Origin: Taeniopygia guttata
Taxonomy: Eukaryota; Chordata; Aves; Passeriformes; Estrildidae
NCBI RefSeq assembly: GCF_048771995.1
Contig: NC_133064.1
Coordinates: 28,127,001-28,191,000 of the forward strand
Length of the DNA: 64,000 bases
Direction of reading: 5' to 3'
Within the stretch, counting starts at the first letter, position 1. Every line of letters starts with the position of its first letter. Below the pieces are notes generated by a model. It saw only the letters and a program-made list of their open reading frames with translations. It had not been told where the DNA came from and searched no databases. This document shows, piece by piece, positions 29,351 through 50,704 of the stretch. A program made the position numbers and the translations under genes.

Positions 29351-29413
29351 CTCTCAGCAGCTACTGCCATCCTAGTAGAGGAGAGTTGTAAACTTACTTT
29401 TGGAACTAATTGT
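29351..29413 (+). pseudogene. X3 pol piece 1, RT connection
   Basis: LSAATAILVEESCKLTFG aligns with VAAALLLEETNRITFNG of X4. It is cut by LTR-c3 in mid-frame. Short but collinear with piece 2. Confidence 0.7.
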
Positions 29414-30818
29414 TGTCATGGTTTGACTCGGGAAGAGAATTTTTTTTAGAAGGAAGAGGTTCATCCAGTCAGGGGTCAGGTTTAGATACTGACACTTGGG
29501 GTGACCAATTGAAGGTGGACACGCCTCTGAGAACACAGAGGGGTTAAAAGCGGAATTCCCAGGAGGACTCGTCCTTCTTTGGTTCCGGTCACCGCATGGG
29601 ACGGATCTCTCCCCTGCCCAGCCCGGGCTGGGTGGGGGAGGGGAGCCATGCGGCCTGCAGAGGTAGGCCAGGAGGTAAAGGATCGGAACCGGCTGGGTCA
29701 GCTCCTGCGGATGGAAGGGTGGAGAACATCTGGGATGTTTTTGTTCCCCCTCCCCTAAGCCAGAGGGAAAAGAGATAGAGAGCCAGCAGACACCTAGAAG
29801 TTTGCCGGCGGAGGAGAAGGAGAAGGGGGGGGGAAGATGCCCAGCGTGGGAGACTAGAGAAAGAGTCCTGGGCTGAGATTGCAGCCGTCCGGGGAGTCCG
29901 GGAATTTTAACCCTTTCCTGTGAAATGAAGGCTTTATGAAATATTACTCCTCCTGAATTTGAAGAAAAGAGAGACAGCTTGAAACCTCAGATGTTCAGAG
30001 AAGAAGGTTGGGGGCAGATGATAGAGTGGCTTTTGGCTGGACTCTGCTTGTTTACCATAGACTGAACCACTCTTTCTTTCAAGAGGGGCTGCATTTTAGG
30101 GGGATGCATTGGTGAGCCAAGAGACCTTCTGCAGCAACTACCAGTTTTGGAGTGGACAGAGAGAGAGCTGAGGAGGGTGTGAGGATGCCCTCCATCTTCA
30201 GGAAGAAGAGAAGGCGATCTCTGTCTTTTGGACCCTCGGCCCCAGGGGAAAATGGGGGGGACTCTAGTCCCGAATTGTGATACTGGACTGTTGTTCCTGG
30301 TGGTCCTTGGCAAAGCATCCTTAAAGGGGCCCTATAAGCAGTCTCTGTCCATGCACGGTGGTGAGAGCACTGTGACATGGAGAGGAGAGTGTCACACTGG
30401 CCTGGTGTGTCTGGGCGGTGCCACGTGTGACATTGGAAACACAAGAGGTGGCAGTTGTGTTTCCTGGGGGTCTATGGTTGCAAGGGGGACTCCTCTCTTC
30501 CCCGATGGACTCAGTATTGATTATATTGAAGGGTGAAAACTTGATTAAGGATCCAAATGGGTCTCGCTGGGGTTTGGTGGAGTTGGGTGGAGGGAGGAGA
30601 AATGTTTTGGAAGGTTTTCATTTCGAATTTTGTGTGGTTTTTTTTTTCTTTCCTTTCTTTTCTTTTTATAGTAGTAGTAGTAGTAGTGTAATAAAGCTTT
30701 TTCCTTTGTTATTAAGTTTGGCCTGCTTTGCTCTGTCCTTGATCACATTTCACAGCATTTGATTGGTAAGTTGTATTTTCATGGGGCGCTGGCATTGTGC
30801 CAGCGTCAAACCATGACA
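29414..30818 (+). repeat. LTR-c copy 3, solo, inside X3 pol
   Basis: 1,405 bp with perfect 14-bp terminal inverted repeats (TGTCATGGTTTGAC and GTCAAACCATGACA) and a perfect 5-bp duplication ATTGT (29409-29413 and 30819-30823). A repeated GTAGTAGTAGTA run and AATAAAGC lie near the 3' end. Confidence 0.95.
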
Positions 30819-30823
30819 ATTGT

Positions 30824-31435
30824 TTACACACCTCATGCAGTCCGAAATGTATTAAATCAAAAAGCTGAAAAATGGTTAACACATACCAGGATGTTATATT
30901 ATGAAGCAAATCTGATAAACAGTGATGACTTGATGCTGGAGGTAGATAAAAGTCTGAACTCAGCACAATTTTTATATGGAGAACCAAAGAGTGACTTAAC
31001 ACAGACTTGTTTAGAAGTTATACAGTACCAAACTAAAGATCAGAAAGATCTAGCAGAACAGGCCCTCCCAGAAGGAGAAAAAATATATTTTGATGGTTCA
31101 TCCAGATGCTTACAAGGAAAAAGGATGTCAAGGATATGCTTTAGTCGATGGGTAAAATATGCAAACCATTGAAAAAGGAAAATTACCTTCAAATTGGTCT
31201 GCTCAATCTTCTGAATTATATGCTCTAAAGAGAGCACTGAAGTATGCCTTTGGGGTAGGACACACTGCTGGAAAAATTTGGGAAGAAAGGCAGTTACTAA
31301 ATTTAAAAGGAAGAGGGCTGATTCATGAAGGACCCATTCTAGAGGTTTTAGAAGCATTAAAATTGCCTGAAGAAATAATGGTAATACATGTCAAAGGACA
31401 ACAAAAAGGAATGACCCAAGAAATAAGAGGGAATA
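30824..31435 (+). pseudogene. X3 pol piece 2, RT connection to RNase H
   Basis: The open frame (30759-31172) contains YTPHAVRNVLNQKAEKWLTH and EKIYFDGSSRCLQGKR. The latter is the start of RNase H with its first catalytic Asp (FDGSS). A frameshift near 31140 moves on to SAQSSELYALKRALKYAFGV, which retains the Glu-bearing helix but lacks the segment with the next catalytic Asp (IYTDSRYAFG in X4), so a short deletion removed it. It ends in QQKGMTQEIRGN at LTR-q. Confidence 0.8.
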
Positions 31436-31880
31436 TGTAGGAATGTGCCCCCTGTTGATGGGGTAAACAAGTTACCATTTGTCTCCTGAAAAAGGAAAAA
31501 AGCCCATAAGTTTTTCTCCTCAATGTGGTTAAAAGACATCTCATAGGACCTTAGAGACTTCACCTCAAACTTAAGGATAGCCAATTGGACAGAAGCCAAA
31601 AAGTCCCACCTAAGCAATTCAGTGGAAAAAGAAGAGAACAAAAGATGTAATTGCTTTTGTGAAGTGTTTTAGCAGGAGCAAGAACCTCTTGCCCTGGCTC
31701 GGTTTTTCTCTGTAATTTTTTTCTTTGTTATTTTTACCTTTTATTAAAACTTTTCTGTTTCCAACACTACCTCAGAAGCCATCCAGCTACTTTTATGCCA
31801 TCTGAGGTAGCTGAGCTATCTTGGGTGTAATACTTATCTCTGAGAGCTTATGAGACCTGGCTCAAAGAGACCAAGTATTA
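31436..31880 (+). repeat. LTR-q, solo, inside X3 RNase H
   Basis: 445 bp, TGTAGGAATGTG...CCAAGTATTA, with TTTTATTAAAAC as a polyadenylation-like site. It has a perfect 6-bp duplication GGAATA (31430-31435 and 31881-31886). It is the only copy in the window; its borders come from the duplication and the resumed pol homology. The 3' end is TA rather than CA. Confidence 0.82.
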
Positions 31881-32284
31881 GGAATAATTTCGCAAATCAA
31901 GAGGCTAGAAATGCAGCAGAAAATGGGAGTGAAAAAGTTACATTAATTTTGACTCCAAGCAAGAAAAAACTGTAAATTCCAAAATTTAATGATGCAGAAG
32001 AGAAGGAGTTAAGTAAAAGAGGGGCAGAGCAAGATCAATCTGAGAAATGGAAACACTCTGATGGGAGGCAATTACTCAATAAGCCCCTTACTAAGAAAAT
32101 ATTAGAAGACATACATCAAAAGACTCATTGGAGCGCTCAAGTTTTGTGTGATCACTTTTAAAGGAATTATGGATGCATTGGGATTTTTGGATTAGCAAAG
32201 TGAGTAACTGAGAGATGTATAACTTGCCAAAGGGTAAATAAAAAAATTATGAGAAAAACAACACCAGGAGGTGGTGAGTTAGCC
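31881..32284 (+). pseudogene. X3 pol piece 3, RNase H end and integrase zinc domain
   Basis: It aligns with X1-region pol 16660-17060 and X4 63150-63560: NNFANQEARNAAENGSEKVT, then the GKWK-like linker and a decayed His-His-Cys-Cys region (about 32110-32250, His residues in IHQKTHW). Several stops. It ends at the P2 integration site, TTAGCC. Confidence 0.75.
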
Positions 32285-32901
32285 TGTCGGAGTCACTTGG
32301 CAAGACCCCAACAGTGTGAAAGTCCTTTTATCCCTAGCCCGGCCGCTGAAGAAAAGGTCTGGAATGCGTGAAGCCGAGTTTTCAAGGTTGTTTATTTTTT
32401 TCTTATCTATAATAGTTTCTCTCTGACCTGCCGAGGTTCAGCTAGTACAGAAGCCATGGCAGTCTCCTTCCAGCCCGAAGCGTCTCCCACATTATATACC
32501 CAAAATTACCTGTACCATGTTTACAGGTCCCGTAACAATACCTAAAATCTTCGTTGGACAGTGTGTTCCTATAGACCAGTAGAAAAGTGTCACTATCACA
32601 CCGAAGCATGGAGGACAAGGAGAACAAGAAGAAGGTTGGGACACGCCCAAATCCCTCCATCTTGTCCCCTGAATTACATTCTAAAAACATCCCAAAATTC
32701 TACTTTTCCACCCTGTGTCAATTCCTCTATTACACTACTCAAACCCTTTTGTCTTGCAATTCCTCATATAAGGTTGGCATCCTCTCCCATGGGCTAAAAT
32801 CAAAGCCACAGGTGGTTTTGACTTGCTGCCAAGGTTCCTGGGCTCTTTGCCAGGGTCTCAAGTCATCCAGGGCAGCCAGAGGGATGCTCTGGACTCTGAC
32901 A
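32285..32901 (-). repeat. LTR-b copy 1 (3' LTR of P2)
   Basis: 617 bp. It begins TGTCAGAGTCC on the minus strand after the polypurine tract GAAAGGGGAGA (32902-32912) and ends GTGACTCCGACA. The U3 start encodes the last ~50 residues of the env frame. It is distantly similar to LTR-d in the U3 terminus. Confidence 0.92.
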
Positions 32902-33424
32902 TCTCCCCTTTCTCGTTGCACCAAAAACACCTCTCTGGCAGCCCTGTTCATGGCCCGCCGCATGCATTGAAAAAGGCATGGCAAAACGAGAAGAATTACA
33001 AGCCCCACTAAAACATAAAAAGCCATTTTCAAAAGTTCCCTCCACAATCGTGAGAGGTCAAAAACTCAAACAAATCATTCAACCAAGACCCAGTAACTTC
33101 TCCAAGTTTGTCTATACCTTCTTGCAATTGCTTTATGTTTTCATGGATCGATTTTGAATCATCTGACAAGTTCATGCAGCACATCCCTTCAAATTCTTCA
33201 CACCCGTGCCCGTGCATCAGCAATCAATAATCAATTGCTGCTGTGTTCTGAATAGTCACCCATCTTACACTGTTGACATCTGTTAACATGTCACTCAGTT
33301 CAAGAGAGATGGCACGAGCGTGCTTGCTCAACCAACACCCCATTCGGTCCAATTGAGTCAAGGCTACCCCAATGCTGTTTGTGGCGAGAATATTGCAGCC
33401 ACAATCCTCTGAGACTTGTTCCAT
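32739..33424 (-). pseudogene. P2 env transmembrane subunit with tail reading into U3
   Basis: Frame 33424-33224 covers the N-terminal helix (ALTQLDRMGCWLSKHARAIS and on) up to a stop at the beginning of the conserved loop. Frame 33223-33029 continues with the CX6CC motif (CEEFEGMCC) and the second helix. Frame 33047-32739 has a membrane anchor (MAFYVLVGLVILLVLPCLFQ), a basic cytoplasmic stretch (RRAMNRAAREVFLVQRER) and about 50 further residues encoded by the LTR, ending at a stop at 32739. Its layout and tail (PLAALDDL, PWERMPTL) parallel P1 (PWNELPTL). Broken by at least two stops. Confidence 0.82.
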
Positions 33425-34290
33425 GTATAAACACTATCATCACACTTTGGATCATATTTTTTAATATTTCTTTTCCCCCTACGTTTTTTCTCTCTAAAGA
33501 TTCTCAAATTGGGTGTTAGCAATGAGAGTTTTCCAATGCTGCATGGACTGCCTGTGACATTCGCAGGGATAGCAGGCCAAATCCTGTCCCCACAAATGAA
33601 AAAGATTCCTTGTGGCAATTGCACTGGGACTTGGTGGGATGGTCTGTTTGACACCTTGGTGTAATTACACCAAGAGGCATTTCTATAAATAAAATGGTTT
33701 GGGGTGACATCTATCATTTTTTTCTTTGCTTGTGTCACTCCTGAAATGCCAAATTCTATACAAAAATTCATTGTCACTGAACCAAGAATTTCCAATTACT
33801 GAGGTTCAAAAGGAGCCACTGGGAGAAATTGTATCCAAACCGCCCATCCATCCAACAGGATTTGAAATGACCTGCGAAACCTTTGGAGGGATGTTCTTTG
33901 GAATTGGCCATTCACTCACTGGCAAGCCCACCAGACATGTTGAAAACGTTTTTTTTGGTCTTGAATGTGTCAAGCAGGTGGTGTGCAAACCTGCTGCATT
34001 GGCCAAAGTTTCCCAAACACTTTATTTTGGTTGAACCATGGGCAAGTCTGCCGAATTACCCAAGGCAATGGAATTGCCTAAGGCAATTGACAATAGAATG
34101 AAACACAAAAACAACATTTTGACTTTGCAATGCAATGACACCCAAGTCCCAAAATTCTTGATTGAAGAGATGCTTGTGGATGTCTGCTCACATCTACGTG
34201 CTTGCCACTTTGCTTTCAGATTCAGTGTCTGCTTGCATCTGAGTCTGATAAGGTTTCACGTATCTCGCTGAAACTCACTTCGGTCCTCGC
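33425..34290 (-). pseudogene. P2 env surface subunit, degraded
   Basis: Frame 33795-33364 includes Cys-rich and Asn-glycosylation-like sequence, FFICGDRIWPAIPANVTGSP and a basic cluster REKKRRGKR (about 33480) of the kind cut by furin-like proteases between the two env subunits. Upstream, frame 34006-33806 (ANAAGLHTTCLTHS) matches P1 (AKAAGLDSICLTHS). Stops separate the frames. Together with the CX6CC partner this is an alpha/gamma-like env behind a beta-like pol. Confidence 0.72.
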
Positions 34291-35022
34291 CCTGTGGAGA
34301 CACAAGTAAAACCCTTGCCCCAAGTTATTAATTTGAAAGGCCCTTCAATTTGCCCCGATTCTGGATTTTTGATCAAAACTAAAGGATTGTCCTTAGTTTT
34401 GCATGTGTACTGTTTGAAAAATGCCTGAAAATTGGTGGAGTGGGCTCTAAAAAGGAGCTGTTTAGAAAGTTCAGCATGTAGAAAGCCTTGTTAAACCGGA
34501 TGTGAGGTGTTGTCTCTGCCTCCCCCCTTTTCTGTTTATCCAAAAGGGATTTCAGGGTGTGATGTGTTCTTTCAATGATTGCTTGACCTGTAGGAGAGTG
34601 GGGAATACCAAGTGTGTCTGCCTCCCCATCTTTTCAAAAACTTGTCAAGGACCTTCCCTTTATAAGTTGGACCATTGTCTGTTTTTATTTCTTGAGGCAC
34701 TCCCAATTATGCAAATGATTGTAAAAATGTCGACAGGCATGTTGTACAGTTTCTCCTGGGTGCAACAATGCAAAAATTGCTCCCAAAAAAGTATCAACTG
34801 AGACATTAACGTTTTTGAGCTTCCCAAAAGGTGGGTATTTTGTGACGTCAGTTTGCCACAACTGGAGGCTTTGCAATCCTCTTGGATTGACAACTTCCGT
34901 AGATGCAGGTGGTTGCACAAACTGACAGTCTGGACAAGCACTAATGATTTCCCTTGCTTGGCTTTTGGAAATGTGAAAGGATTACATCAGTGCTCATGCA
35001 TTCTGATGAAAAAATGCATGGC
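34291..35022 (-). pseudogene. P2 pol: integrase, degraded
   Basis: This contains a remnant of the zinc domain and a core with KTDNGPTYKGKVLDK (about 34690-34645) that holds the second catalytic Asp. The C-terminal part is NPESGQIEGPFKLITWGKGF (about 34365-34310), very similar to P1. Frames 34941-34660 and 34918-34685 are shadows of the same region in two frames, reflecting frameshifts. Class II integrase, inactive. Confidence 0.75.
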
Positions 35023-35463
35023 TCAATTTTGCTTGCTCAAAAATGTCTGGCAAATTCTGTTAAATGGGCATAGTTTGTCTGCATGAGCATTTCCTTCTGC
35101 CAAAAACCCTGGAAGAGAGGAATGTGCTCTGATGTGGGCCACAAAGTATTTATGTTTTCTGTTCTCTAGTAATGTTTTCATGCATAGTAAATATGAATAT
35201 AAAATTTCATTGTTTGTCTCTCTCAAAAGTGAACCTTCCAGTCTTTTGACCACATTCGCAACATAAGCTGAATCTGTGATCAAATTGAAGGGTTGCTGAA
35301 ATATTTCAAAAGCTCTGGTCACTGCTGCCAATTCTACAATTTGTGGTGAACCCTGCACAATTTTTATGCTTGATTCCCATTCCCCTGTATTTGAGTTTTG
35401 ACACGTGATGACTGATTTGTGAGTTTTTCCTGAACCATCAGTAAACACAGGTATTGCATCCAA
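35023..35463 (-). pseudogene. P2 pol: RNase H, open frame
   Basis: The 146-codon open frame carries PVFTDGSGKTHKSV (first Asp), SPQIVELAAVTRAFEIF (Glu helix), LITDSAYVANVV (second Asp) and HIRAHSSLPGFLAEGNAHAD (final acidic site). All four catalytic acids are therefore in place. It is separated from RT by a stop at the start and runs into decayed integrase. It removes the RNA strand during reverse transcription. This is the best-kept P2 domain. Confidence 0.82.
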
Positions 35464-36323
35464 TGGTTCCTCACTTATTTACGGCTTTTCCCTAAAACTT
35501 ATTTTGGCATTTAGTAATCTATGTTTTGGAAGGTGAATTGAACAAACACCTGGGTATTCTAACAATGCAATTTGTAAATCTTTTTACTTCTGCGATGCCC
35601 AATCAAAATATTGTTTTTTCAAGGGTAGATAGATTGTTGAGAAGTCTTTGCCTGCCACTGTCAGCAACCGTGTCCTTGCTTTTATGATAATTTGAGCTGT
35701 CATCTCCAGGTCCGTGAGAATTGTTTTTGGCAATCTGTAAGGTAAAAAAAATCCACTCTATGATCAAGAGAGGATCTCTTTGTGATGAGTTCCACTGAAA
35801 AATCAAGCCATACAACTGTATTTTTTCCCCAACACTGCTAGATAAAAAGGCAGTGAGGTCACAAAACGATGTGCTTGTTTTTGTTTAATGATGTCTGCAA
35901 TCCTTTCAAGGGTTTTCTGTGCTTCTGGTGTGAGCATCCTGGGAGATTTAATATTGTTGTCTCCTCTTAAAAGTTTGAACAGCAATTCAAGATCATCATT
36001 CATGATTCCTAAAATTGGCCTCATCCAGTTGATCTCTCCTAGAAGTTGTTGCACATCCTGTAGGTTGTTGATCTCTGAATTAATTTCTATTTTTTTGCGG
36101 TCTGATGGTCTGCGCCGTGATCTTCCATCCCAAGTATTTACATAATGCAATTTCTTGAATTTTTGAAGTGCTAATTTCCAGTCCTGCCTTTTACACTTCT
36201 GCAAACACACAGTCACGAACCTTTTGTAGTTCCTGTTGTGTCGGTGCTGCAATGAGCAAATCCATATAATGAATGATTTTTGTTCCTGGATATTTTTCTC
36301 GTGCTGGAGACAAAGCTCGAGCC
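35464..36323 (-). pseudogene. P2 pol: RT palm end, thumb and connection
   Basis: Frame 36429-35803 starts in LTR-m and then gives RT thumb sequence (QLLGEINWMRPILGI and PEAQKTLERI). The active-site region (about 36280-36255) reads YMDLLIAA in a shifted frame, so the second Asp of the YxDD motif is lost. A further fragment continues to 35464. Inactive. Confidence 0.75.
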
Positions 36324-36329
36324 ATGTAC

Positions 36330-37340
36330 TATTGTAAATGCAGGCGAACCCAATGGGAAGAAATGACAATGTTTGACTCAGTTCAGAAGGCTGAATGATT
36401 TCTTTATTATAACTATGGCTAAAATACATTAATATACTATATAAAAGGGAAGAGACTAAAACTACATACTACTTTCTCTAACTTTAACTCTAACACAACT
36501 CGTGACCTTGTCGCGAGAGTCCAGACACAGGTGGATTGGATTGGCCATCAGGCTCAAACAATCCTCACCAGAATCCAATCAAGTACTCACTCCAGGTAAA
36601 CAATTCTCCAAACACATTCCACATAGGAAAAACAAGGAGCAGAAATAGAAATTATTTTCTCTTTCATTTCTCTCTGCTGTATTGTGTTATTGAGTTTGTT
36701 CAGTTTGTTAAGTGGTTTAGTCCTGCACCCCCTTGTGCAGGTCCTGCCCTCCCTTGCCTCCTCCCATCCCTATGTCAATCCTCCTTTCTCTTCTCCCCTG
36801 AAATGTCACCCTTCTGTAGACCCCGCCCCTGGACCCTTCCTTTCTTTCTGGAAGGTTCTACCTGGGACGTTGAGTGATAGGCCAGACAGCCAGGTCTCCT
36901 CCTACCCTCTTTCCCCATTGGTGTTCCTTCATGTATGTTACCCTGATTTCCACACCCCTGTTTGATCTCATTGGCCCACTGTAGGGCCATCCCCTGGTTA
37001 CCACCCACTGTTATAAGCCTGTGCAAAAGGCTGCTCGAGGTTTTTGCAGACAGTTTACCCTCCGACCCAGGTGGCTCTTCTGAGCTGCCATATAAAGTTG
37101 GATTACAAACCCCTGCAAGAGATGACTCCTTGCCTTTGTCATCGTCGCCAAGGTCTCCCTGAGGCTCAGGAATTCCGAACCCAAAGCTGTCGTCTTTACC
37201 TCCTGAGGATTGGGAAGGTGGCCAGTGCTGACCTCGGTGTCCAGCCGAGCCGGGCAGGCATTTTCCAGGACAGACACCGCAGCATCTCTCTGTGCACCTT
37301 TATGAAAAATCCTGAGAGGGAGAGAAATATGCTTGCTACA
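36330..37340 (-). repeat. LTR-m, solo, inside P2 RT
   Basis: 1,011-bp insertion with a perfect 6-bp duplication ATGTAC (36324-36329 and 37341-37346). On the minus strand it begins TGTAGCAAGC and ends TTTACAATA. Its 3' part has a TATA-like TTTTATATAG and AATAAAG, and shows partial likeness to LTR-h near the end (TTCAGAAGGCTG on the plus strand). The P2 RT frame resumes on each side. Confidence 0.85.
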
Positions 37341-37830
37341 ATGTACCGTTGGCAAATGCTTGGCGAGTTTTTGAGGCCTTGTGGAAGAACAGTCCAATGG
37401 TATCTTTGCAGAGGCTCCTGTCTATTGATGCTTGGGACGGGGAATGCAAGTTGAGGAGCATCATCTGGATGGAGTGGAATGATGAAAAACAATCTTTGAG
37501 ATCAATGACCACAAGTGGCCAATCTCTCGGAATCATTGAGAGAGAGAAGTGAAGTGGTCCCATGTCCTCAAGGACTTAGTTGATTTTTCTAGGTCATGAA
37601 GCAATCTCTATGAGCCTGAAGCCTTTTTACGAATGACGAACACTGGAGAATTCCAGGGACTGTTCGTCAACTTGATGTGTCCCTTTTCAAGTTGTTCTTT
37701 GACCAAGTTTTTCAGAGCACTCAATTTCTTTTGCTCAAAGGGCCACTGATCCACCCAGACAGGATTGTCTGTCTTCCAGGTCAGTTTCAGAGTGGTGATT
37801 GTCGCAGTGACCCCAACTAAAAATCCACTT
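37341..37830 (-). pseudogene. P2 pol: RT fingers and palm
   Basis: [20 protein letters not shown] and [18 protein letters not shown] are the classic N-terminal RT motifs of beta-type viruses. [11 protein letters not shown], split over two frames at about 37505, holds the first catalytic Asp. [20 protein letters not shown] follows and is interrupted by LTR-m. At least two frameshifts and a stop are present. Confidence 0.8.
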
Positions 37831-38716
37831 CCAGTTTCATGCCCCATTGTGCCAAGAGGTCTCTTCCCCAAACTGTGATGCGCTTTTCCACAACAAAAGG
37901 ACAAATGATTGCTGTTTTCCCTCCTGGTCCTGAGACGACAATTGCATTTGCACTCTGCAGACATATGGAGCTTCCTCCTATGCCTGAGAGAGAACCCAAG
38001 GGTGGAATTAACTTCCATTCCTGGGGCCAAAATATATATGATATCACTGTAACATCAGCCCCTGTGTCAAGCATCCCTTGGATGATGATTGATTTTTCAC
38101 CATATGTCAATTGACAGGCGACGATGGGTCGATCTCGACCTATGTGCTTCACCCAGGAAGCATGAACTTCCACATGGTTGCCAGAAGGAAAGTCCTGATA
38201 ATCAAACACTGGCATAACTTGTTCCCCTGCATGAGGTGGTAAAGCAATAGCTTTAGCTATTGGGGTATTTTCTGGAATGATCAATGGTGGTCGAAGAGGC
38301 TTAGCTAAAACTGTCAGCTCTTCATTGTGATTTGCTGAGATTATTGAAGGATAAATGATGAGTCCAAAGATGCTGCTTCTATCTTTGCCTATTATTAAAA
38401 AGTCTTGTCTCTTCAACGCTGTTCCAGTGACACCTGTGTGTATCACTGCATGATTTTCATCCATGAAGCATGTCATTTTGGAAGCTGCCAGGACGCACTG
38501 TGCTCCTGGTGGCAACAACTCTGGATCACTGGGGATCCTGCTGATTGTCCTGCTGAGGGAATCTGCGTGATGCTTTCCAATAGTTGTCCTGGTTGTGGAA
38601 TCTGAGTCTGAGCCATCACCATAACTTGTGTCATCACACGCTGATGATTCGTGCTCTTCTTTGAGTTTCCTGGATGAGGTAAAGGTCTTCCATCTATGTC
38701 TGTCTGGGAATAGCAT
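37817..38716 (-). pseudogene. P2 dUTPase-like domain and protease, 299 open codons
   Basis: Residues ~70-185 resemble a retroviral dUTPase in the protease frame (IHTGVTGTAL, FGLIIYPSIISANHNEELTV, then PLIIPENTPIAKAIALPPH). This enzyme keeps dUTP out of the new DNA and is a mark of betaretroviruses. Residues ~210-299 are aspartic protease: [14 protein letters not shown] with the Asp-Thr-Gly site, the GIGGSS flap and [12 protein letters not shown] at the end. It overlaps the nucleocapsid frame upstream by ribosomal-frameshift geometry. The frame is open, but surrounding gag and RT are broken. The dUTPase signature residues look diverged. Confidence 0.8.
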
Positions 38717-38726
38717 TCACTCAGGA

Positions 38727-39020
38727 GATGCTTTCCTATTCTGCATTTTTGACAAATGTCTGTTGACTGCCCAGTCATTGCTTTGGGCAATTTCTCTTGA
38801 AATGTCCATGGGCCCCACACTTGTAGCACTGTCCCTCTGATTTACTTTTCTTTTGAAGTGTCGAGAGAACCTCTTTGATGTTCTCATTTGGTGCCTGAAT
38901 GATTTTCCCCATTTCTTCTCCAACAATGGACACAACCTGTTGAGGTGTTCCCACCTTGCTGCACTCTTCCACTATCTCCGCCAGAGAAAGTTGGACTGGC
39001 ATTGCGTTGAGGACTTGGCT
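38727..39020 (-). pseudogene. P2 gag nucleocapsid, two zinc knuckles
   Basis: The first knuckle CYKCGAHGHFKRNC (about 38835-38790) is intact. The second, CQKCRIGKHLLSEC (about 38765-38720), keeps the Cys-His-Cys spacing but lies in another frame (38829-38473), so a frameshift falls between them. Two knuckles are normal for class II viruses. The domain packages genomic RNA. Confidence 0.82.
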
Positions 39021-41221: not shown

Positions 41222-41227
41222 TATACC

Positions 41228-41640
41228 TGTAAGCCAAGGAATCTCAGAAAACGGGAAGCTGGACAGGACAAACGCAGATCCGAACCAATGTGGTTAATCA
41301 AACGTTCTCCCTTTATTTGAGATAAGATGGTAGTTTATATAAGCTTCTACATAGTTTACAGATTACAAAGGCACTCTGATTGGCAAGCTAACATTGTTTA
41401 TCTTTTCTTTAAGGTGGCCAAACTTTTCACACTGCAGCTCTACTCTAATTCATGCTCGGATAGCTCATTACTTTGTAGTTACCTTAACAGAATTTCTGAC
41501 TGCGCTACAACTGAATTCTCACTGCATCAAAGGCTTTGAGGCCCCATCAAGGCCACTTATCAGGGCTTAGTCTGAGTGGGTAGCTCAAACCTCATTCCAA
41601 ACATAAATCATGACCTCTCTCTCTCAGAAATTCTGTAACA
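41228..41640 (-). repeat. LTR-a copy 4, solo, inside P2 gag
   Basis: 413 bp, TGTTACAGAATT...TTGGCTTACA on the minus strand, with a perfect 6-bp duplication TATACC (41222-41227 and 41641-41646). It fixes the length and class of the LTR-a family. Confidence 0.95.
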
Positions 41641-41689
41641 TATACCTAATTTTAACTTTCCTGGTATTAACTGGGGTGTTTGAGGAGAC

Positions 41690-42170
41690 TCACTGGTTGA
41701 TGATGCCCCCTGCACCTCTTTGATAGGTGTCAGGTCCTGTTCCGCCCCGAATTTTCAGGGCTGTCTGCCACCTGCAGTTCGCAGGGCAGTCCCTGCCCCC
41801 CCTCTTTGGTGGGCGTATCCCTCGTCTGCCGTTTGCAAGACGGAATTTTTCCAATCCCCCGGTGGGTGTAAGTCCCGCGTGTTTTCTGTTTGAAATTGCT
41901 TCTAGCATGGTTCTCACTGGAGTGAGGAGTTTCACAGCTGTTTTGTCTTTTTGTGTTGCCAAATGATATAATCGTATATTAACATCTTTCCAAAATGCTG
42001 GCTCAAAAATCACATGGGTCTCAGTGTGTGGGTAATTAGAACGGACCCATTGCAAAAGATCTTTGAGTTCCCTGTCGTCTAAGGTCACAAGATAAGTGGC
42101 CGCCACATTCCTTAGAGTGGATAAGATATTAAGTTGGTCCTGGGAACAAGCCCCCCCCCCCCCCCCCCAT
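41690..42170 (-). pseudogene. P2 gag matrix, frame broken by a poly-G run after the ATG
   Basis: The ATG at 42170-42168 is followed directly by 17 further G (plus strand C run 42151-42168). In the present length the frame reads poly-Gly and stops within about 15 codons. The homologous matrix is open in another frame from 42106 (MAATYLVTLDDRELKDLLQW and FEPAFWKDVNIRLYHLATQK). P1 has MGKGCSQ at the same place and P2 has the codons for Cys-Ser-Gln after the G run. A change in G number therefore broke the gene. Confidence 0.75.
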
Positions 42171-42428
42171 GTTCTTAATTTTGACCGGTCTCACAAATAG
42201 CTGTGTCGTCTGCAAAATCGGTCCAGATGCTTTTCCTGGTCTCTGGCCAGCAGATAACAGGTGGAGAACACCCAGGGCCCTTGGATTTTCTCCTTTCTGG
42301 GTTGAGTTTGAAGAAGCTTGGTCTCTGCAGGGGTTCAGGCTGTTCTCTTCAGGAGGTTTTCTTCTCGGGCTAGGGTCTGATGTTCAGCACAACTGGTGAG
42401 CTAATGCCTGACCAGGGACCACAAAAGC
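42171..42428 (-). other. P2 leader and primer site region
   Basis: About 258 bases of untranslated leader. TGGTCCCTGGTCAGG begins about 8 bases after the LTR and may be the primer site. I do not recognise the tRNA. Confidence 0.45.
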
Positions 42429-43041
42429 TGTCGGGGTCACTTGGCAAGACCCCAACAGTGTGAAAGTCCTTTTATCCCTAGCCCGGCCGCTGAAGGAAAG
42501 GTCTGGAATGCGTGAAGCCGAGTTTTCAAGGTTGTTTATTTTTTCTTATCTATAATAGTTTCTCTCTGACCTGCCGAGGTTCAGCTAGTACAGAAGCCAT
42601 GGCAGTCTCCTTCCAGCCTGAAGCGTCTCCCACATTATATACCCAAAATTACCTGTACCATGTTTACAGGTCCTGTACCAATACCTAAAATCTTCGTTGG
42701 ACAGTGTGTTCCTATAGACCAGTAGAAAAGTGTCACTATCACACCGAAGCATGAAGGACGAGAACAAGAAGAAGGTTGGGACACGCCCAAATCCCTCCAT
42801 CTTGTCCCCTGAATTACATTCTAAAAACATCCCAAAATTCTACTTTTCCACCCTGTGTCAATTCCTCTATTACACTACTCAAACCCTTTTGTCTTGCAAT
42901 TCCTCTTATAAGGTTGGCAGCCTCTCCCATGGGCTAAAATCGAAGCCACAGGCATTTTTGACTTGATGCCAAGGTTCCTGGGCTCTTTGCCAGGGTCTCG
43001 AGTCATCCAGGGCAGCCAGAGGGATGCTCTGGACTCCGACA
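42429..43041 (-). repeat. LTR-b copy 2 (5' LTR of P2)
   Basis: 613 bp, TGTCGGAGTCC...GTGACCCCGACA on the minus strand. Collinear with copy 1, with scattered substitutions and a 3-6 base indel near 42755. Confidence 0.93.
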
Positions 43042-43126
43042 TTAGCCCTGTGACGGTTTCAAAGCATCCAAGTGAACTTTACTGAACTTCCCCAAGTGCA
43101 GAGATGGAAGTTTTTTCTAGCAATAG
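43042..43126 (+). pseudogene. X3 pol piece 4, integrase core start
   Basis: FQSIQVNFTELPQVQRWK aligns with FSNIQVDFTELPKVGRYK of X4. The catalytic Asp of this motif is Asn here (VNF in place of VDF). It is bounded by P2 on the left and the 3' end of CR1 on the right. Confidence 0.8.
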
Positions 43127-44245
43127 TAGAATTACAGAATCACGTAATCACTAGGTTGGAAGATACCTTCAAGATAATCGAGTTCAGCCCATGCCATAAC
43201 ACCTCAACTAAATCATGGCACTGAGTGCCACATCCAATATTTTTTTAAACACATCCAGGGATGGTGACTCCACCACCTCCCCAGGCAGACCATTCCAGTA
43301 CTTTATCACTCTTTTTGTAAAAAACTTTTCCCTAATATCCAACCTATATTTCCCTTGCTGCAGCTTAAGACTGTGTTCTCTCGTTCTGTCAGTTGCTGCC
43401 TGGAGAAAGAGAGAGACCAACCCCCACCTGACTACAAACACCTTTCAAGAAGTTGTAGAGAGTGATAAGGTCACCTCTGAGTCTCCTTTTCTCAAAACTA
43501 AACAACCCCAGCTCCCTCAGTCATTTGTCATAGGGCTTGTGTTCCAAGCCCCTCACCAGCCTTGTTGTCCTCCTCTGGACAGGCTCAAGCATCTCAATGC
43601 CCTTCCTAAACTGAGGGGCCCAGAACTGGACACAGTTCTCAAGGTGTGGTCTCACCAGTTCCAAGGACAGGGGAAGAATTACCTTCCTGGTCCTGCTGGC
43701 CACACTATTCCTGATACAAGCCAGGATGCCACCTGCCTTCTTGGCCACCAGGGCACACTGCTGGGTCATGTTCAGCTGGCTGTTGACCAGTACCCCCAGG
43801 TCCCTTTCCGCCTGGGCACTGTCCAGCCACACTGTCCTCAGCCTATAACGTTGTAGGGGGTTATTGTGGCGAAAATGAAGGACTCAGCACTTGGACTTAT
43901 TAAACTTCATCTTATTGGACACTGCCCATCCATCCACGCATCCATCCATCTGTTCCAAGTCTCTCTACAAAGCCCTCTTACCTTCCACCAGATCAATACA
44001 CACTCGCAGCTTAGCGTCATCTACAAATTTACTAATGAAAGACTCAATACCCTCATCCATTTCATCAATAAAAATATTGAAAAGAACTGGCCCCAGCACA
44101 GACCCGTGAGGGACACCACTAGTGACTGGCCTCCAGCTGGGATGCAGCACCATTCGCCACCACTCTCTGGGCCCAGCCATCCAGCAAGTGCAGAGTGCTC
44201 CTGTCCAAGCCATGGACTGACAGCTTTTCCAGGAGTATGCTGTGG
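43127..44245 (-). pseudogene. CR1 ORF2 end: RT palm, C-terminal domain and 3' UTR
   Basis: Frame 44213-43965 carries [20 protein letters not shown] and [10 protein letters not shown], the latter holding the RT active site (VDD). Frames 43832-43521 ([21 protein letters not shown]) and 43441-43208 (IREKFFTKRVIKYWNGLPGE) are the well-known CR1 C-terminal region. Frameshifts at 43860-43960 and near 43480 break it. The untranslated end is 43127-43207. Confidence 0.88.
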
Positions 44246-44700
44246 TGATAGTAAAAGGGTTTTAAAATCATGGGGATTTAGGGTTAACAGGAAAATAAGC
44301 TTAGTAGGTCCTGGAAAAATAAATACCTTAAGCACATGAAGAACTAGTACTTGCTAGAACTGCACTATGTAGCTAGTACATGATAAATGATATAACTGTT
44401 AGATGTGACGATTGTTTAGTAATTAAATATAATTACTGTTTAATCAGAAAGAATAATCATGAGAAACTGTGGTCATGGACCTAAGAAAGATCACGATAAA
44501 CTCATGCCAATGTATGCAATAGAACAATATAAGTTTAGTAATTAATGTGTAAGTTATATAACGATAGAATATAAAATACGTTCAGCTTGAAAGCCATGGC
44601 AGAGTCAGATTTGGGTTTGTACCCCGACTCCCAGAGCTCTTAATAAAAGCACCTGCATATAATCATATCCCGTGATAATGTGTGTTTCTGAACGCTAACA
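44246..44700 (+). repeat. LTR-i, solo, inside CR1
   Basis: 455 bp, TGATAGTAAAAGGG...AACGCTAACA, with a perfect 4-bp duplication GTGG (44242-44245 and 44701-44704). It has an AATAAAAGC site at 44642, shortly after TGTACCCCGACTCC. The 4-bp site suggests class I. The CR1 RT frame resumes on both sides. Only copy in the window. Confidence 0.85.
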
Positions 44701-45037
44701 GTGGGAGACAGTGTCAAAGGCCTTGCTAAAGTCCAAATATACAACATCCACAGCCTTTCCTGCATCCACCAGGCAGGTCACTTGGGCATAAAAGGAGACC
44801 GGGTTGGTCAAACATGACCTACCACTCCTAAACCCATGCTGGCTGGTTCTGATATCCTGGCCATCCTGTAAGTGATGCATGATGGCACTCAATATAAAGT
44901 GTTCCATTACCTTACCTGGTACTGAGGTCAGGCTAACTGGTCTATAATTACCAGGATGCTCCATCCCACGCTTTTTATGGATGGACATCACATTGGCCAG
45001 CTTCCAGTCATCTGGAACCTTGCTGGTGAACCAGGAC
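44701..45037 (-). pseudogene. CR1 ORF2 middle: RT fingers and palm
   Basis: The 98-codon frame 44991-44695 carries NYRPVSLTSVPGKVMEHFIL, TSQHGFRSGRSCLTNPVSFY and DVVYLDFSKAFDTVSH, the core RT motifs with the first catalytic Asp. It is cut at the left by LTR-i and at the right by P3. Confidence 0.9.
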
Positions 45038-45349
45038 TGTCGCTGTCAAGGCAGGACCGGAATGAGAAGACTCTGATTCAGAAGGCTGCTGAGAGTAAAA
45101 CTCCGATTTATTCAAAATGCACTGCTCTTTTATACAGAGCTTCACAAAGGTTAAATCCATTGGTCCTAAAGTGAAAACAACCTACAACATTGGTTCAGCG
45201 TGCTTGACACACAGTGATAAAACTTAACTATAAACAATGTGAGAACAAGAGAGATAAAGAATTATTTACATTCCTTCCCAGCTCTTTCCCAGGCTTTTGC
45301 CTGGCTAGAAACTCTCAGTTTCTTTCTTTGACTGAATCTGAGACTTACA
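45038..45349 (-). repeat. LTR-h copy 1 (3' LTR of P3)
   Basis: 312 bp, TGTAAGTCTCAG...GACAGCGACA on the minus strand, with CTTTTATACAG-type promoter bases on the plus strand (read as TATAAAAG) and AATAAATCGG near the 3' end. Confidence 0.9.
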
Positions 45350-46063
45350 TTTCCACCTTTTTGTTTAAAGGAGGCGGTGTTTGTCAGAACACCTTGCAAA
45401 GAAGAGAACAAACACGACTCCGAGGTTCACTAGTTGATAATTCAAAACCCCCACTGGATGTTGGCTCAGAACAGTCAAAGAGATTCCAAGCTTATAATTT
45501 TCAAGGAATCAGTTACCAACTCTAAGATAGTAACAACTCACTGTCAGACTGTCAACGGACTGACAGTCCAACTTGTCAAAACCCATTTCCCAGTGTGAGT
45601 ATGACCTGACAGAAAAGAAGGTATTTACAACACGTGCACATACCCAAATCAGCCAAATTTGAATTTGACAAAATGAGTACACATCTCTTTGCCAGAGCTG
45701 CAAAGCCATTAGGCCTCTGGGATCTGTCCCAGCCACTAAGGTGCAGCAGGTTTGCCTTGATTGGCATTCATCAGAATTAGTTTTGCAAGGTGTGTGCACT
45801 TAATACAAAAACCATGCAAGGCTTTGCCTATGCAATCATGTCCTCAATGGACAGCTTGAGTGATGAAATCGAACTTAGGTCCAAACTACATCCTCAAGGC
45901 TTTCAAAACAATTGAGTGAAACTGAACCAATTCAGAAAGGACCAAATTCACAACACTTGAGAAACCTCTGAAATGCCATGAAATCTCTGAAATGCCATGG
46001 TCACAGCCTTAATTCAATCACTTGGGCTGAGGTTGATTCGTGGCTTCTCAGTACTTTGAGCTG
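45350..46063 (-). pseudogene. P3 pol remnant: integrase fragment
   Basis: Frame 45799-45509 includes PRGLMALQLWQRDVYSF, matching the integrase core start of P1 (LQLWQADVTKYPSF), with the first catalytic Asp retained. Upstream sequence (45800-46050) looks like a decayed zinc-binding domain. The remaining core is missing before the 3' LTR. No function. Confidence 0.6.
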
Positions 46064-47751
46064 TTAGTGAAAACACGCAGCTCTTTTTTTTTTTTTTTTT
46101 TTTGAAGAGCCAGCGAGCCAGCGGTGGACTCTAGGACCCAGCGATGCTTGGCAAGGCGGAGGACCTGGCCCCGTGGGCAAGGCCATGTGTCCCAAACCCA
46201 GCCGGCGGGAGCCAAAACTCTCTGCTGAGCCAATTGTTCCCCAGCCTCTCTTTGGTATTTCCTGGGACCCCTGAACTTGGGATCCCGGGGGCACTCTATG
46301 ACCACTGATAAATGAGTGACCTCTCCCAACCTCATACATCAGTGCACGCCCCCAAGAGATTCCGAGAAACTTAGAAATTCCTCTGAGCTTCTGCCCTTCC
46401 CCCACCCCGCCTAGCCATGGTTTCTTCCACAGCTCTTCGGCATCCCGCTCCGCAAACCACAAGAGCAGGACGCGCAGGGTGCGAGAAGCGGCTGTTTCCT
46501 CAGGAATATAGGATTTCATCCGGGCTCCGAGACTCACTGCACCACCCACGCCCGCCCAATACAAGGGGCTGCTCTCTTGTCCCCGAGTGTCTGTGCTGCT
46601 GCAGAATAAAACCGATCGCTGCACAGCTCCCTGACTTGCGGCCCCACTCCCCTCAGTCCCAGCTCTGAGACGAGCAGCAGTGATGCTGCTGCTGCCCAAG
46701 CCGGTGTCCTCCCCCGCCGGCTCCCCCTCGGAGGGGCAGAGTTCGGTACAGTCTGGAGGGGACGATGGGCTGGACTCATTGTCCAACACGGGGCTCTTGG
46801 CCACCAAATTGCAGGGCGGAACCGCGGCGCCCTGTGGGCGCCCCCCCCCCCCCATCCGTCTCGCGGGGCGGGCGCCGCGACTGCATCTCCCGGCGGGGCC
46901 GGGGGCGGCGGCGGCGGCTGCGGCGGCTCTTCCAGCCGGAACTCAGGAGGCAGCGCCGTGGCTGCGGCTGTTCCTCCCGGGAGTGACGCCAGTGGTTCCA
47001 GGTTGGGCGGAGTCACTGCTGCTGCTGCTGCCGGAGCAGCGGTGGGCGTGACAGTGAATTCCGTTGTCAGCAGGGGTGGCGCCTCCAGCGCGGGAGTCGG
47101 AATTCCTGCGGGTGGCAGTGGGCGTGCCAGGGGATGGACCAAAGGCTGCATCACCGGGTGCGCAGGCTCCATCAGCAAAGGAGTCGGAGGGGCGGCACCC
47201 ACCCCCGCTGCGCCCGGCGCCGCGGGCAGCGCTGGCCCCCCCCGCAAATGCAGTTTGGAAGGAGGGGGGGCAGCGGAGCCGCGGGCGGCGGCGGCTCTCG
47301 CCAGTTCGGGGCCGCCCCGTGCAGGCCATGCATTTTCGGGTGTGCCGAAGCTGGTAGCTGTGGCAAAGGCACCCCGGCCGCCTCGGGAGGGGCGGGCAGT
47401 GTTGGCGGTACCGTGCTCTGGGCAGGGTGTGCCCGCGCACCCAGCCGCCGCGCGGGCTGCGGTGCGGTCCGCCTCCGGGATCCCGAAATTCCTGCCTGTG
47501 TACAAGGTTATGTCGATGCCCGCCCAAATCACAGCCAGGTCAGACGCGCTGGCATTTCCTTCGCACATTCGCGCCATGAGACAGCGTCCAAGGTTGAGCC
47601 AGACCTTACGATCAAAGGGGAACGTGGGATTTACAGAAAATCCCCAGTCCCGGGCCCAACACAAAAGTCTGATCAGGTCCTTCTCAGAGAACCAAGCTCC
47701 GATAAGAGGGATGCTGGCTCACCAGGCAGTCAAGACAGCTTCCTTGACTGC
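46064..47751 (-). pseudogene. P3 gag, matrix remainder and Pro/Ala-rich spacer, frameshifted
   Basis: From the LTR-g2 border leftwards the matrix frame has a TGA at 47721-47719 and then stays open into frame 47664-46534: basic matrix (WARDWGFSVNPTFPFDRKVW) then a long Pro/Ala/Thr-rich spacer. At a run of 13-14 G (plus-strand C run near 46837-46850) the reading frame appears to shift to frame 46855-46064, which continues Gly/Ser-rich and ends in poly-Lys from the A run at 46083-46104. I see no capsid homology region, so the true capsid is probably deleted. Confidence 0.65.
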
Positions 47752-48346
47752 TGTTATGGGTAACAGACATAATTTGCGCCTTTCCTTATATGGAATATAT
47801 AATGTTAAATACTTGTTAGATTTACCTCGTTTGTACTAGCCTCCCCCCCCCTCCCTCCCCCCCCCCTTTTCCTCCCCTCAGAGACCGGGTGTATGTTAAG
47901 AAGCTAATTTACAAGTGAGAAGATACAGGTAGCCAGGCGCCAGACGATGGGCCATGCGAGAGACCCCAGGCGCTGATCATCGCGTGAACAACCCGAGATG
48001 GATATCTTGGAAATCCCCAGACAGATCCATGTGGATTCAACAAACTCCAGACACTGAATTATTAACATATGGACTCTGAATAGAAGAAAGGACTGATTGC
48101 AAAAATCTTGGCCTCAGGCGGAATTATCCCTATAAAACTTGCTTGTGCCAGGATGGAGGTGTGTGGGGCATAGAGGAAAACCTCTCCTGAGGCTGACTTC
48201 TTGTTGCACACCCAGGGCTGACCCCAGGCTTGGCACTGTTTTGGTTTTTTTCTTTTTTTTTTTCCTGTGGCTGGCTAGATAGAATTTGACCGCAAATAAA
48301 ACTGTTTTGTTTTTTAATTTGGCTGAATAAATTTTCATTTATAACA
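47752..48346 (+). repeat. LTR-g copy 2, solo, inside P3 gag start
   Basis: 595 bp, TGTTATGGG...TTTATAACA. It has a 4-bp duplication CTGC (47748-47751 and 48347-48350). Removing the LTR and one CTGC leaves the P3 gag frame continuous across the junction, which supports a 4-bp site. Confidence 0.9.
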
Positions 48347-48368
48347 CTGCCGATGGCTGGTTTCCCAT
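48347..48368 (-). pseudogene. P3 gag start codon and first codons
   Basis: The ATG at 48368-48366 opens MGNQPS, a plausible N-myristoylation signal for matrix, and is cut after seven codons by LTR-g2. The rest of matrix is on the other side of that LTR. Confidence 0.7.
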
Positions 48369-48752
48369 TTTTAGGAAACTTTTCCCTAGCAGATGTCAAC
48401 TTCAAGAGTCCGACAGTCCGCTATTCTAGGGAAAACCCGTCCCGCTCAGTTCCAGGCTCTTAAGAGCCAGTCCACGGTCCAACAGGACCCAGCCTTCTCC
48501 GGAAGGCGTAGACTTCCAGCGTTACCTTTCTTAAGAAGGCAGAGGTGTCCATTCACAGCCTCCAGGCTGTTGGCGTGGAACCGCGCCAGAGGAGACCCCC
48601 TGCAAGACGCTGAGGTTCAGGTCTGCTACCGAGGCCGCAATTCCACTTCAGGTCACCAGACCCTGTCACTTCAGGGCAGGGTGTGACCCCACGTCGGGAG
48701 TCACCAGACCCTGTTTTCAGGGTAAGGTGTCATCACGTCGGCAGTCACCAGA
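48369..48752 (-). other. P3 leader with tandem primer-site segments
   Basis: Starting at the LTR border the minus strand has TCTGGTGACTGCCGACGTGA, then 44 bases later TCTGGTGACTCCCGACGTGG, and 48 bases later TCTGGTGACC. The first is in the primer-site position (48734-48752). The tRNA is not identified by me. The rest of the leader is non-coding. Confidence 0.65.
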
Positions 48753-49064
48753 TGTCGCTGTCGAGGCAGGACCGGAATGAGAAGACTCTGATTCAGAAGG
48801 CTGCTGAGAGTAAAACTCCGCTTTATTCAAAATACACTGCTCTTTTATACAGAGCTTGGCAATGGTTAAATCCATTGGTCCTAAAGTGAAAACAATCTAG
48901 AACATTGGTTCAGAGTGCCTGACGCACAGTGATAGAACTTAACTATAAACAGTGTGAGAACAAGAGAGATAAAGAATTATTTACATTCTTTCCCAGCTCT
49001 TTCCCAGGCTTTTGCCTGGCTAGAAACTCTCAATTTCTTTCTTTGACTGAATCTGAGACCTACA
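48753..49064 (-). repeat. LTR-h copy 2 (5' LTR of P3)
   Basis: 312 bp, TGTAGGTCTCAG...GACAGCGACA. It differs from copy 1 at a modest number of bases (for example ACTTACA against ACCTACA at the U3 start). Confidence 0.92.
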
Positions 49065-49645
49065 CAGGACTGTTGGTAAATGATGGAGAGAGACTTCACA
49101 CGCTCATCTGCCAGCTCCCTCAACACCCTGGGATGGATCCCATCTGGTCCCATAGATTTATGAACATCCAAGTGGCTCAGCAGTTCTCTGACTGCCTCCT
49201 CCTGGATAACAGGGAGACCATTCTGTTCCCTGACACCATCTACCATCACAGGAGGACAGTTGTCCTGAGGACAAGCCATCTTCCTACTAAAGGCTGAGGC
49301 AAAGAAGGCTTTAAGCACTTGTGCCTTCTCCTCATCTGCAGTTACAAAGTTCCCTTCAACATCCAGTAGAGAACAAAGGTTGGTTTTACCCTTCCTTTTG
49401 CTGTTAATATATTTGTAAAACCATTTTTTATTCTTCTTCACAAAAGTTGCTAAATTAAGCTCAAACTGAGCTTTGGCCTCTGTCTTTCTTCTACATGCCA
49501 TAGCAACCCCCTTAAATACTTCCTGAGAGACCTGATCCTCCTTCCAAAGATGATATATCCTCTTTTTATTCCTAAATTCCTTCAAAATGTCATTGTCCAT
49601 CCAGGCTGGACGTTTGCCTCGTTGACCATTTAACTCATTCAGTAG
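49065..49645 (-). pseudogene. CR1 ORF2 5' piece: linker and RT start
   Basis: The open frame 49657-48977 covers WMDNDILKEFRNKKRIYHLW, FYKYINSKRKGKTNLCSLLD and KSMGPDGIHPRVLRELADE, the segment between endonuclease and RT of CR1 ORF2. The last codons before 49064 run into the P3 LTR. The 5' border with X3 integrase lies at about 49645. Confidence 0.88.
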
Positions 49646-50386
49646 AAGCTGTCCCAACTGTTAGAGCTACTGTTAATGTGGTATGTAAGACCCTTTTGGA
49701 ACAAATTTTTCTCAGGTATGGAATGGTTAACAAGATAGACTCAGATAGAGGAACACATTTTATGTCAAGAGTCTTACAGCAAATAACTCAAGCCCAGGGA
49801 ATAGAATAAGAATTACATACCCCGTGGTACCCACAGAGTTTGGGCCGGGTAGGGCGGATGAACCGGACTTTAAAAAGGACTTTAATTAAACTGATGATTG
49901 AAACCCAGATGTCATGGGTAAAGTTTTTGCCTTTGATCCTACTGAGCGTCCGGACACAACCCAGATCAGATCTGGTAGTGTCACCCTATGAAATGATGTT
50001 TGGGTTGCCCTTTTTGACCTGCCAACATGAAACTGCTACTTACAAAGAAGAGGAACTGAGTGTTAGAAAATATGTCACCACAATTGCAAGAACTCTTGAA
50101 AATTTGCAGGTGAAATGGATAATCCCTCAAACCGCACCATTAGAATTTAAGATTCATAGTGTCTACCTGGGAGAATGGGTATTGGTTAAAACATGGAAAG
50201 AACGATCTTTAACTCCACAATAGGAAGGTCCTTTTCAGGTAATGCTGACAACTGAAGCAGCAACCTGGACTAAGGAAAGAGGGTGGATCCACGCCAGCAG
50301 AATCAAAGGACCTGTGGAAAATCCTAAGGAGTGAACTATAACATTGATGCCAGGTGATACAAAATTGACTCTCAAGTGAAGATTGG
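49646..50386 (+). pseudogene. X3 pol piece 5, integrase core and C-terminus
   Basis: VRATVNVVCKTLLEQIF and KIDSDRGTHFMSRVLQQ carry the core with the second catalytic Asp. After a stop (about 49808), frame 49840-50223 has MNRTLKRTLIKLMIETQMSW, SVRTQPRSDLVVSPYEMMFG and LGEWVLVKTWKERSLTPQ (C-terminal domain). A TAG follows, then the terminal ERGWIHASRIKGPVENP. The conserved HTPWYPQSSGRVER-like helix has changes (SLGRVGRM), with the catalytic Glu replaced by Gly. Inactive. Confidence 0.82.
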
Positions 50387-50704
50387 GTGGTGAACTGGGA
50401 TGACCCAAATAATCTCCCAAGGATAACAGACAACTGGGAAGTAAGAAGAAGCTTATATGAGTGGTTTCAAGCACCCCCTAGAGAAACTCTAAGGAAACTC
50501 AGATACCCTCCCTGGGGAGGGATACTTCCTCTTCAAACCAGAGGATCTGGTTTATATAGACCTGAAACCCAGAGAATATTTGCTATAGCTTGTGATTTGT
50601 ATAAAGAAGATAATCCCTTATATCCTGACCTAAGGGTCAAATTGAAGCCACCCTCCATACCTGTGGATGTAACAGCCTGGTCTGAGAGCAAGAAAACTAG
50701 ATAA
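50387..50704 (+). CDS. unrecognised ORF after X3 integrase (105 codons)
   Basis: An open frame MVNWDDPNNLPRITDNWEVR..., ending SESKKTR. It is Trp/Pro/Arg-rich with no membrane segment, signal peptide or known motif. It begins about 60 bases after the end of integrase. A decayed relative lies at the same place in X1 (about 21780-22050). In class I viruses env usually starts near here, so it could be an env leader, but it lacks the expected hydrophobic signal. I do not know its function; whether it is translated is unknown. Confidence 0.4.
   Translation: MVNWDDPNNLPRITDNWEVRRSLYEWFQAPPRETLRKLRYPPWGGILPLQTRGSGLYRPETQRIFAIACDLYKEDNPLYPDLRVKLKPPSIPVDVTAWSESKKTR

Follow-up and report, generated by a model that had tools for sequence, protein, structure and literature searches.

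The order in which transposable elements were active can be read from insertions of one element into another, as in the transposition in transposition (TinT) chronology (PMC3014933), an approach that has been run on avian CR1 elements (PMC8665684). Seven examples of nested long terminal repeat (LTR) elements are described in chicken (PMC5006616), and avian W chromosomes are reported as refugia of endogenous retroviruses (ERVs) (PMC8310711). Here we describe a nested stack of ERVs and one CR1 element in a 64,000-nucleotide stretch of Taeniopygia guttata contig NC_133064.1 (positions 28,127,001 to 28,191,000 of the forward strand; the whole stretch is referred to as the window, and its own numbering is used below). 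The host is X3, a class I pol/env relic, one element split into five pieces on the same strand. That the stack is real and was built by serial germline insertions, one into another, is close to certain. Moreover, one of the inserted proviruses, P3, is a member of an amplified lineage in which no reverse transcriptase was detected, a point missed by an earlier sequence-only reading of the window.

The locus resembles the TinT data in that the order comes from element-in-element insertion and that its CR1 is free of target duplications. On the other hand, TinT uses genome-wide counts, while a single locus gives a partial order only. The genome searched comprises 1.14 Gb in 41 contigs, and the window lies on C41 (33.8 Mb; for comparison, C40 has 82.2 Mb). 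As in an avian W refugium, ERVs are dense here and the copies of some families are concentrated on one contig, C41. The difference is that C41 is called W from its size and ERV concentration, which make it probably that chromosome, and that only the present case has an old family, X3, almost confined to the contig. Non-autonomous ERVs include ART-CH in chicken and ETn/MusD or VL30 in rodents. These keep the LTRs and the leader, lack pol and have pol-carrying relatives in the genome, as does the P3 type, which differs from them in keeping an N-terminal part of gag, an A-run and an integrase fragment. ART-CH has been called an avian retrotransposon (PMC4607243). As a kind of thing, a nested stack is ordinary.

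The host element X3 and its inserts

X3 lies on the plus strand. Piece A (29357-29413, 57 bp) is recognised in pol by a translated match and is presumably the stretch between reverse transcriptase and RNase H, and piece B (30819-31435), collinear with other pol copies of the window, is taken here to be the RNase H region. Piece C (31881-32284) holds the N-terminal part of integrase, with Pfam zf-H3C2 only sub-threshold. Piece D (43042-43127) belongs to the integrase core, and piece E (49621-50703) runs from the integrase core to the C terminus and then, by position, into an env-like frame. The Pfam rve match of piece E (E=1.5e-6, 28.8 bits) is below the curated cut-off of 32.6, and at E<=0.1 no Pfam match was found for piece B or for the later two stretches of piece E. 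The class I label is an assumption that we share with the sequence-only reading.

That X3 is one pol gene in five collinear pieces had been claimed from the letters alone, with an alignment to X4 pol as the proposed check. An alignment to three other pol copies of the window bears the claim out. The X3 pol is related to these copies (by translated comparison, no tree), and its pieces follow the same order as the copies at 53.9-55.6 kb (minus strand) and 62.5-64.0 kb (plus strand); a third copy at 16.3-17.05 kb is collinear for pieces B and C only. In addition, eight X3-family loci were fetched, one of them X3 itself, and the other seven, among them the copy at 16.65 kb in the window, were compared. 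Pieces B and C, and likewise C and D, adjoin in all seven, with only the first 40 bases of D matching in L015. Pieces D and E adjoin in 6/6 loci where piece E was found, and A and B in all four where piece A was found. The five pieces are all joined in four relatives, L011-L014, piece E being interrupted further on in L012.

The extent given earlier for the region, 29351..50703, is nearly right: recognisable homology begins at about 29357, and an open frame ends close to 50703, a position that is not a demonstrated end of X3. Two similar tandem stretches of about 95 bp, seen by eye at 29162-29356, separate X3 on its left from an LTR-a copy and contain one translated match. Matches similar to reverse transcriptase are found elsewhere in the window, none adjoining the left end of X3. 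A genome search with piece C (40 of 64 candidates scored) gave 41 match rows, 39 of them on C41; the top match besides X3 itself is at 85%, and X3 relatives appear almost confined to C41 among the matches listed.

Pieces A and B are separated by LTR-c3 (29414..30818), a solo LTR of 1405 bp flanked by ATTGT (5 bp, an ERVL-type length), and pieces B and C by LTR-q (31436..31880, 445 bp), which has the ends TG..TA and the duplication GGAATA (6 bp). Provirus P2 (32285..43041, minus strand, 10757 bp) lies between pieces C and D, with LTRs at 32285-32902 and 42428-43041 and the duplication TTAGCC. P2 is an ERVK (class II) element by its 6 bp duplication, LTR pair and gag-pro-pol-env domains (no tree); its Pfam matches above cut-off are zinc knuckle, protease, reverse transcriptase thumb, RNase H, Integrase_Zn and Avian_gp85, with rve below cut-off. 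It carries LTR-m in pol (36330..37340, 1011 bp; ATGTAC on the plus strand, TG..TA on the minus strand) and LTR-a4 (41228..41640, 413 bp; TATACC).

Pieces D and E are separated by the CR1 (43128..49620, minus strand), a 5′-truncated long interspersed nuclear element (LINE) of about 2.0 kb net. The CR1 is interrupted by LTR-i (44246..44700, 455 bp), with GTGG duplicated (4 bp, an ERV1-type length), and by provirus P3 (45038..49064, minus strand), with LTRs at 45038-45349 and 48753-49064 and the duplication CAGGAC. P3 has 4027 bp with, and about 3.43 kb without, LTR-g2 (47752..48346, 595 bp), which lies near the start of its gag and is flanked by CTGC (4 bp). The site of LTR-g2 is uninterrupted in 7/7 P3-type loci fetched from the genome.

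The identity of the CR1 as a LINE is given by its RVT_1 domain, its repeat-type 3′ end and its 5′ truncation. The RVT_1 domain is split by LTR-i, with model positions 2-84 to the right of the insert and 100-156 to the left. The 3′ end, at 43128, is a degenerate ATTCTGTA-ATTCTA, and ATTCTRTG-type repeats are described for the CR1 3′ end (PMC6523648). The idea that the CR1 had removed six codons of X3 was rejected, as piece E begins at 49621 and not at 49642. The presence of a CR1, the kinds of LTR and the Avian_gp85 match of P2 are indicative of a bird. No entry was listed for the window by Rfam at gathering cut-offs or by ARAGORN.

Target duplications of 4-6 bp are exact at all eight LTR-type inserts, both the six that the sequence-only reading had named with their duplications and the two that it had placed in P2. 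At 4, 5 and 6 bp, they agree in length with the rule for ERV1, ERVL and ERVK given in PMC6523648, where LTR ends other than TG..CA are also reported. In a control with 2000 first-order random flank pairs per insert, in which both boundaries could move by up to 25 bases, the probability that one or more fitting duplications arise is between 0.0015 and 0.0755 per insert, highest for the two 4 bp inserts; the per-insert chances multiplied together give about 5e-16. The TA end of LTR-q and LTR-m was admitted in this control post hoc, after being seen. With the boundaries shifted by up to 40 bases, identical flanks are found in 0 to 36 of 6560 placements. The joined flanks of about 30 bases are readable in one frame at eight of nine sites, the P2 site having a stop codon. 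At the P3, LTR-g2, LTR-m and LTR-a4 sites the frame is weak evidence, since more than one frame may be open over so few bases or the identity of the frame is only presumed.

Order and ages of the inserts

The nesting places X3 before LTR-c3, LTR-q, P2 and the CR1, the CR1 before LTR-i and P3, P3 before LTR-g2, and P2 before LTR-m and LTR-a4. The chain of four ordered events proposed earlier, X3 > CR1 > P3 > LTR-g2, is correct by this nesting, which also supports the order X3 > P2 > LTR-m or LTR-a4. However, P2 and the CR1 with P3 are separate inserts into X3, and therefore nesting gives no order of P2 relative to the CR1 or P3.

Dating by LTR pairs, as had been proposed for P2 and P3, was carried out. 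The P2 pair shows 15 differences over 613 sites, for a Kimura two-parameter (K2P) distance of 0.0249 (standard error 0.0065; 0.0174 outside CpG). The P3 pair shows 16 differences over 312 sites and a distance of 0.0534 (standard error 0.0136; 0.0448 outside CpG). Under the rates that PMC2946954 quotes for avian introns, 2.0-3.9e-9 per site per year, the ages are about 3.2-6.2 million years for P2 and about 6.8-13.3 million years for P3, with overlapping 95% ranges. The two divergences thus suggest that P3 is older than P2, at only p=0.051 (Fisher; z=1.89). The W-linked substitution rate may be lower. The left LTR of P2 is clearly nearest its own partner (97% vs 92% for others, among the matches listed). 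In comparison, the right LTR of P3 is up to 96% identical to LTRs elsewhere and 95% to its partner (among the matches listed); since it is no closer to its partner than to LTRs of other loci, conversion from other copies could have inflated the pair distance.

Compared with the window's three further LTR-g copies, LTR-g2 shows K2P distances of 0.117-0.129 (gaps left out), while these copies differ among themselves by 0.026-0.058. Its top genome copies among the matches listed are at 96% (40 of 1233 candidates scored). By these distances LTR-g2 is assigned to a separate, divergent subfamily. As it lies inside P3, most of the 12% would predate its insertion if the P3 LTR pair is a fair clock. 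Distance to the remaining LTR-g copies was not accepted as a clock for LTR-g2, because 12% is more than the P3 LTR pair permits, and the comparison with a family consensus that had been suggested as a clock is unsuitable for a divergent subfamily. In the same search, 32 of 41 rows of LTR-g2-type LTRs are on C41, and among the matches listed 12 pairs have a spacing of about 9.2 kb, with 10 of these pairs on C41.

Over its first 287 bases, LTR-c3 recurs at 97-99% in 39 listed rows besides itself (40 of 1743 candidates scored). Its K2P distances to the window's other three long LTR-c copies are 0.28-0.34, and the two results together point to a young subfamily. LTR-c3 is probably younger than P3 and than LTR-g2, and among the youngest inserts; it is perhaps younger than P2 as well.

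The sequence-only reading had taken the region for a dated record, with X3 oldest, then the CR1 and P2, then P3, and LTR-g activity last. This timetable as a whole is unlikely, although P3 does lie one level deeper than P2 and the contrary signal of the LTR pairs is marginal, with a P3 distance that may be inflated. Nesting level does not order separate branches, and the LTR pairs run opposite to the proposed order, with 5.3% in P3 against 2.5% in P2. Moreover, the closer listed copies of LTR-c3 than of LTR-g2 speak against LTR-g as the last activity. What stands of the record is the partial order read from nesting, with X3 first, the CR1 before P3 and P3 before LTR-g2, and rough bounds on the ages; as a full timetable it is wrong or unproven.

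The P3 lineage

P3 has a 6 bp duplication and an LTR pair, as ERVK (class II) elements do, and may be described as an ERVK derivative rather than a full member. Its interior consists of an N-terminal part of gag, a GC-rich tail, an A-run (46086..46104, minus strand) and a weak integrase remnant, which matches P2 at E=0.003; the A-run lies between the GC-rich gag part and the integrase fragment. Pfam at E<=0.1 gave nothing for the gag stretch, and a scan for duplications found no further solo LTR in the GC-rich part.

The 701 bp surrounding the A-run recur elsewhere in the genome. The search with this joint (40 of 69 candidates scored) gave 42 match rows, and among the matches listed 34 besides P3 span almost its full length; of these, 21 are on C41 and the other 13 on C27, C31 and C37. 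Seven P3-type loci (L023-L029) were chosen and fetched, and in all seven the parts are in the same order as in the P3 interior. For L025 the sequence retrieved contains the 5′ LTR only in part. For L026 it stops within the leader, and this locus also carries additional sequence at two points. With approximate boundaries, the K2P distances of the LTR pairs are 0.0195 in L023, 0.0065 in both L024 and L027, 0.051 in L028 and 0.084 in L029, the most diverged of the loci fetched. L024 and L027, on C27 and C31, have flanking sequence in common and look like duplicates of one insertion, so that not every row on C27 and C31 stands for a separate insertion. Further P3-type copies on C27 and C31 score similarly, which may reflect a segment duplicated from one small chromosome to another or an artefact of assembly.

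ERVs commonly undergo internal deletion, and P3 might have been an ordinary provirus that lost pol after its insertion by a private deletion. Such an event is very improbable here, as the same joint is found in the other listed rows and the same order of parts in every P3-type locus fetched.

Two further loci, L030 and L031, were picked since their LTR matches lie 6-7 kb apart. They have the same LTR as P3 and a longer, different interior. L031 has Gag_p24 and integrase above cut-off and dUTPase and RVT_1 sub-threshold, and L030 matches it in 8/8 parts compared. At E<=1e-4, the L031 parts match P3 in the N-terminal part of gag only, with no capsid, dUTPase or reverse transcriptase. The other P3-type loci match the gag N terminus and the N-terminal part of integrase only, apart from one short further match in L029.

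The P3 type therefore appears as a non-autonomous lineage of proviruses of about 3.5 kb, with the same deleted interior in many insertions that, apart from the duplicates L024 and L027, are presumably independent. The LTRs that the P3 type has in common with L030 and L031 suggest mobilisation in trans, which is the simplest reading for a lineage without reverse transcriptase, and L030 and L031 are possible helpers. We consider it probable that the lineage has a fixed chimeric interior and was amplified over a long time, for the most part on a single ERV-rich chromosome, by relatives that carry pol and share its LTR, and that this locus orders it relative to a CR1 and another ERV. No P3-type lineage was found in a literature search of titles and abstract openings, a coverage with most subscription papers outside it.

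Origin of the stack

The best explanation of the stack is that retroelements entered one another in the germline on an ERV-rich, probably non-recombining chromosome. In this account the class I ERV X3 came first and then decayed. It later received LTR-c3, LTR-q, P2 and the 5′-truncated CR1; the CR1 received LTR-i and P3, P3 received LTR-g2, and P2 received LTR-m and LTR-a4. The solo LTRs may be former proviruses that lost their interiors by recombination between LTRs, and low recombination may have preserved the stack. P3 may have arrived already without reverse transcriptase, copied by enzymes that a relative with pol and an identical type of LTR supplied.

Several observations weigh against serial insertion. 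The X3 and P3 relatives used are other copies in the same genome, unoccupied but not orthologous empty sites. Piece A has just 57 bp, with an unexplained duplication on its left, and the frames of pieces A and B differ at LTR-c3. The CR1 is flanked by GT/GT only, 2 bp that do not make a diagnostic duplication, and its insertion therefore rests on the uninterrupted X3 relatives. This fits the description of CR1 integration in birds as leaving no target duplication that can be recognised (PMC3014933), but one chicken CR1-F is reported to have a duplication of 5 bp (PMC2734521).

Chromosomes rich in repeats are difficult to assemble and copies of these elements are abundant, but assembly joins or rearrangement as the source of the stack can be dismissed as extremely improbable, given the exact duplications at 8/8 LTR-type inserts, parts that follow one another identically in relatives without the interruptions, a window that contains no N, and four junction-crossing searches in which, among the matches listed, the full junction is found only at the window itself (candidates scored: LTR-c3 left, 40 of 1743; LTR-g2 both sides, 40 of 1233; P2 left, 40 of 1898; P3 right, 40 of 1854).

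The locus cleanly illustrates how much of the order of ERV activity can be read from nesting by itself, and where this ends. Separate branches need dates from LTR pairs, and distance to a consensus can mislead for a copy from a divergent subfamily. If C41 is the W chromosome, the near-confinement of X3 would mean that this chromosome keeps ERV interiors that are scarce elsewhere. If the P3 lineage moved in trans, it would represent a naturally occurring avian retrovirus system that depends on a helper.

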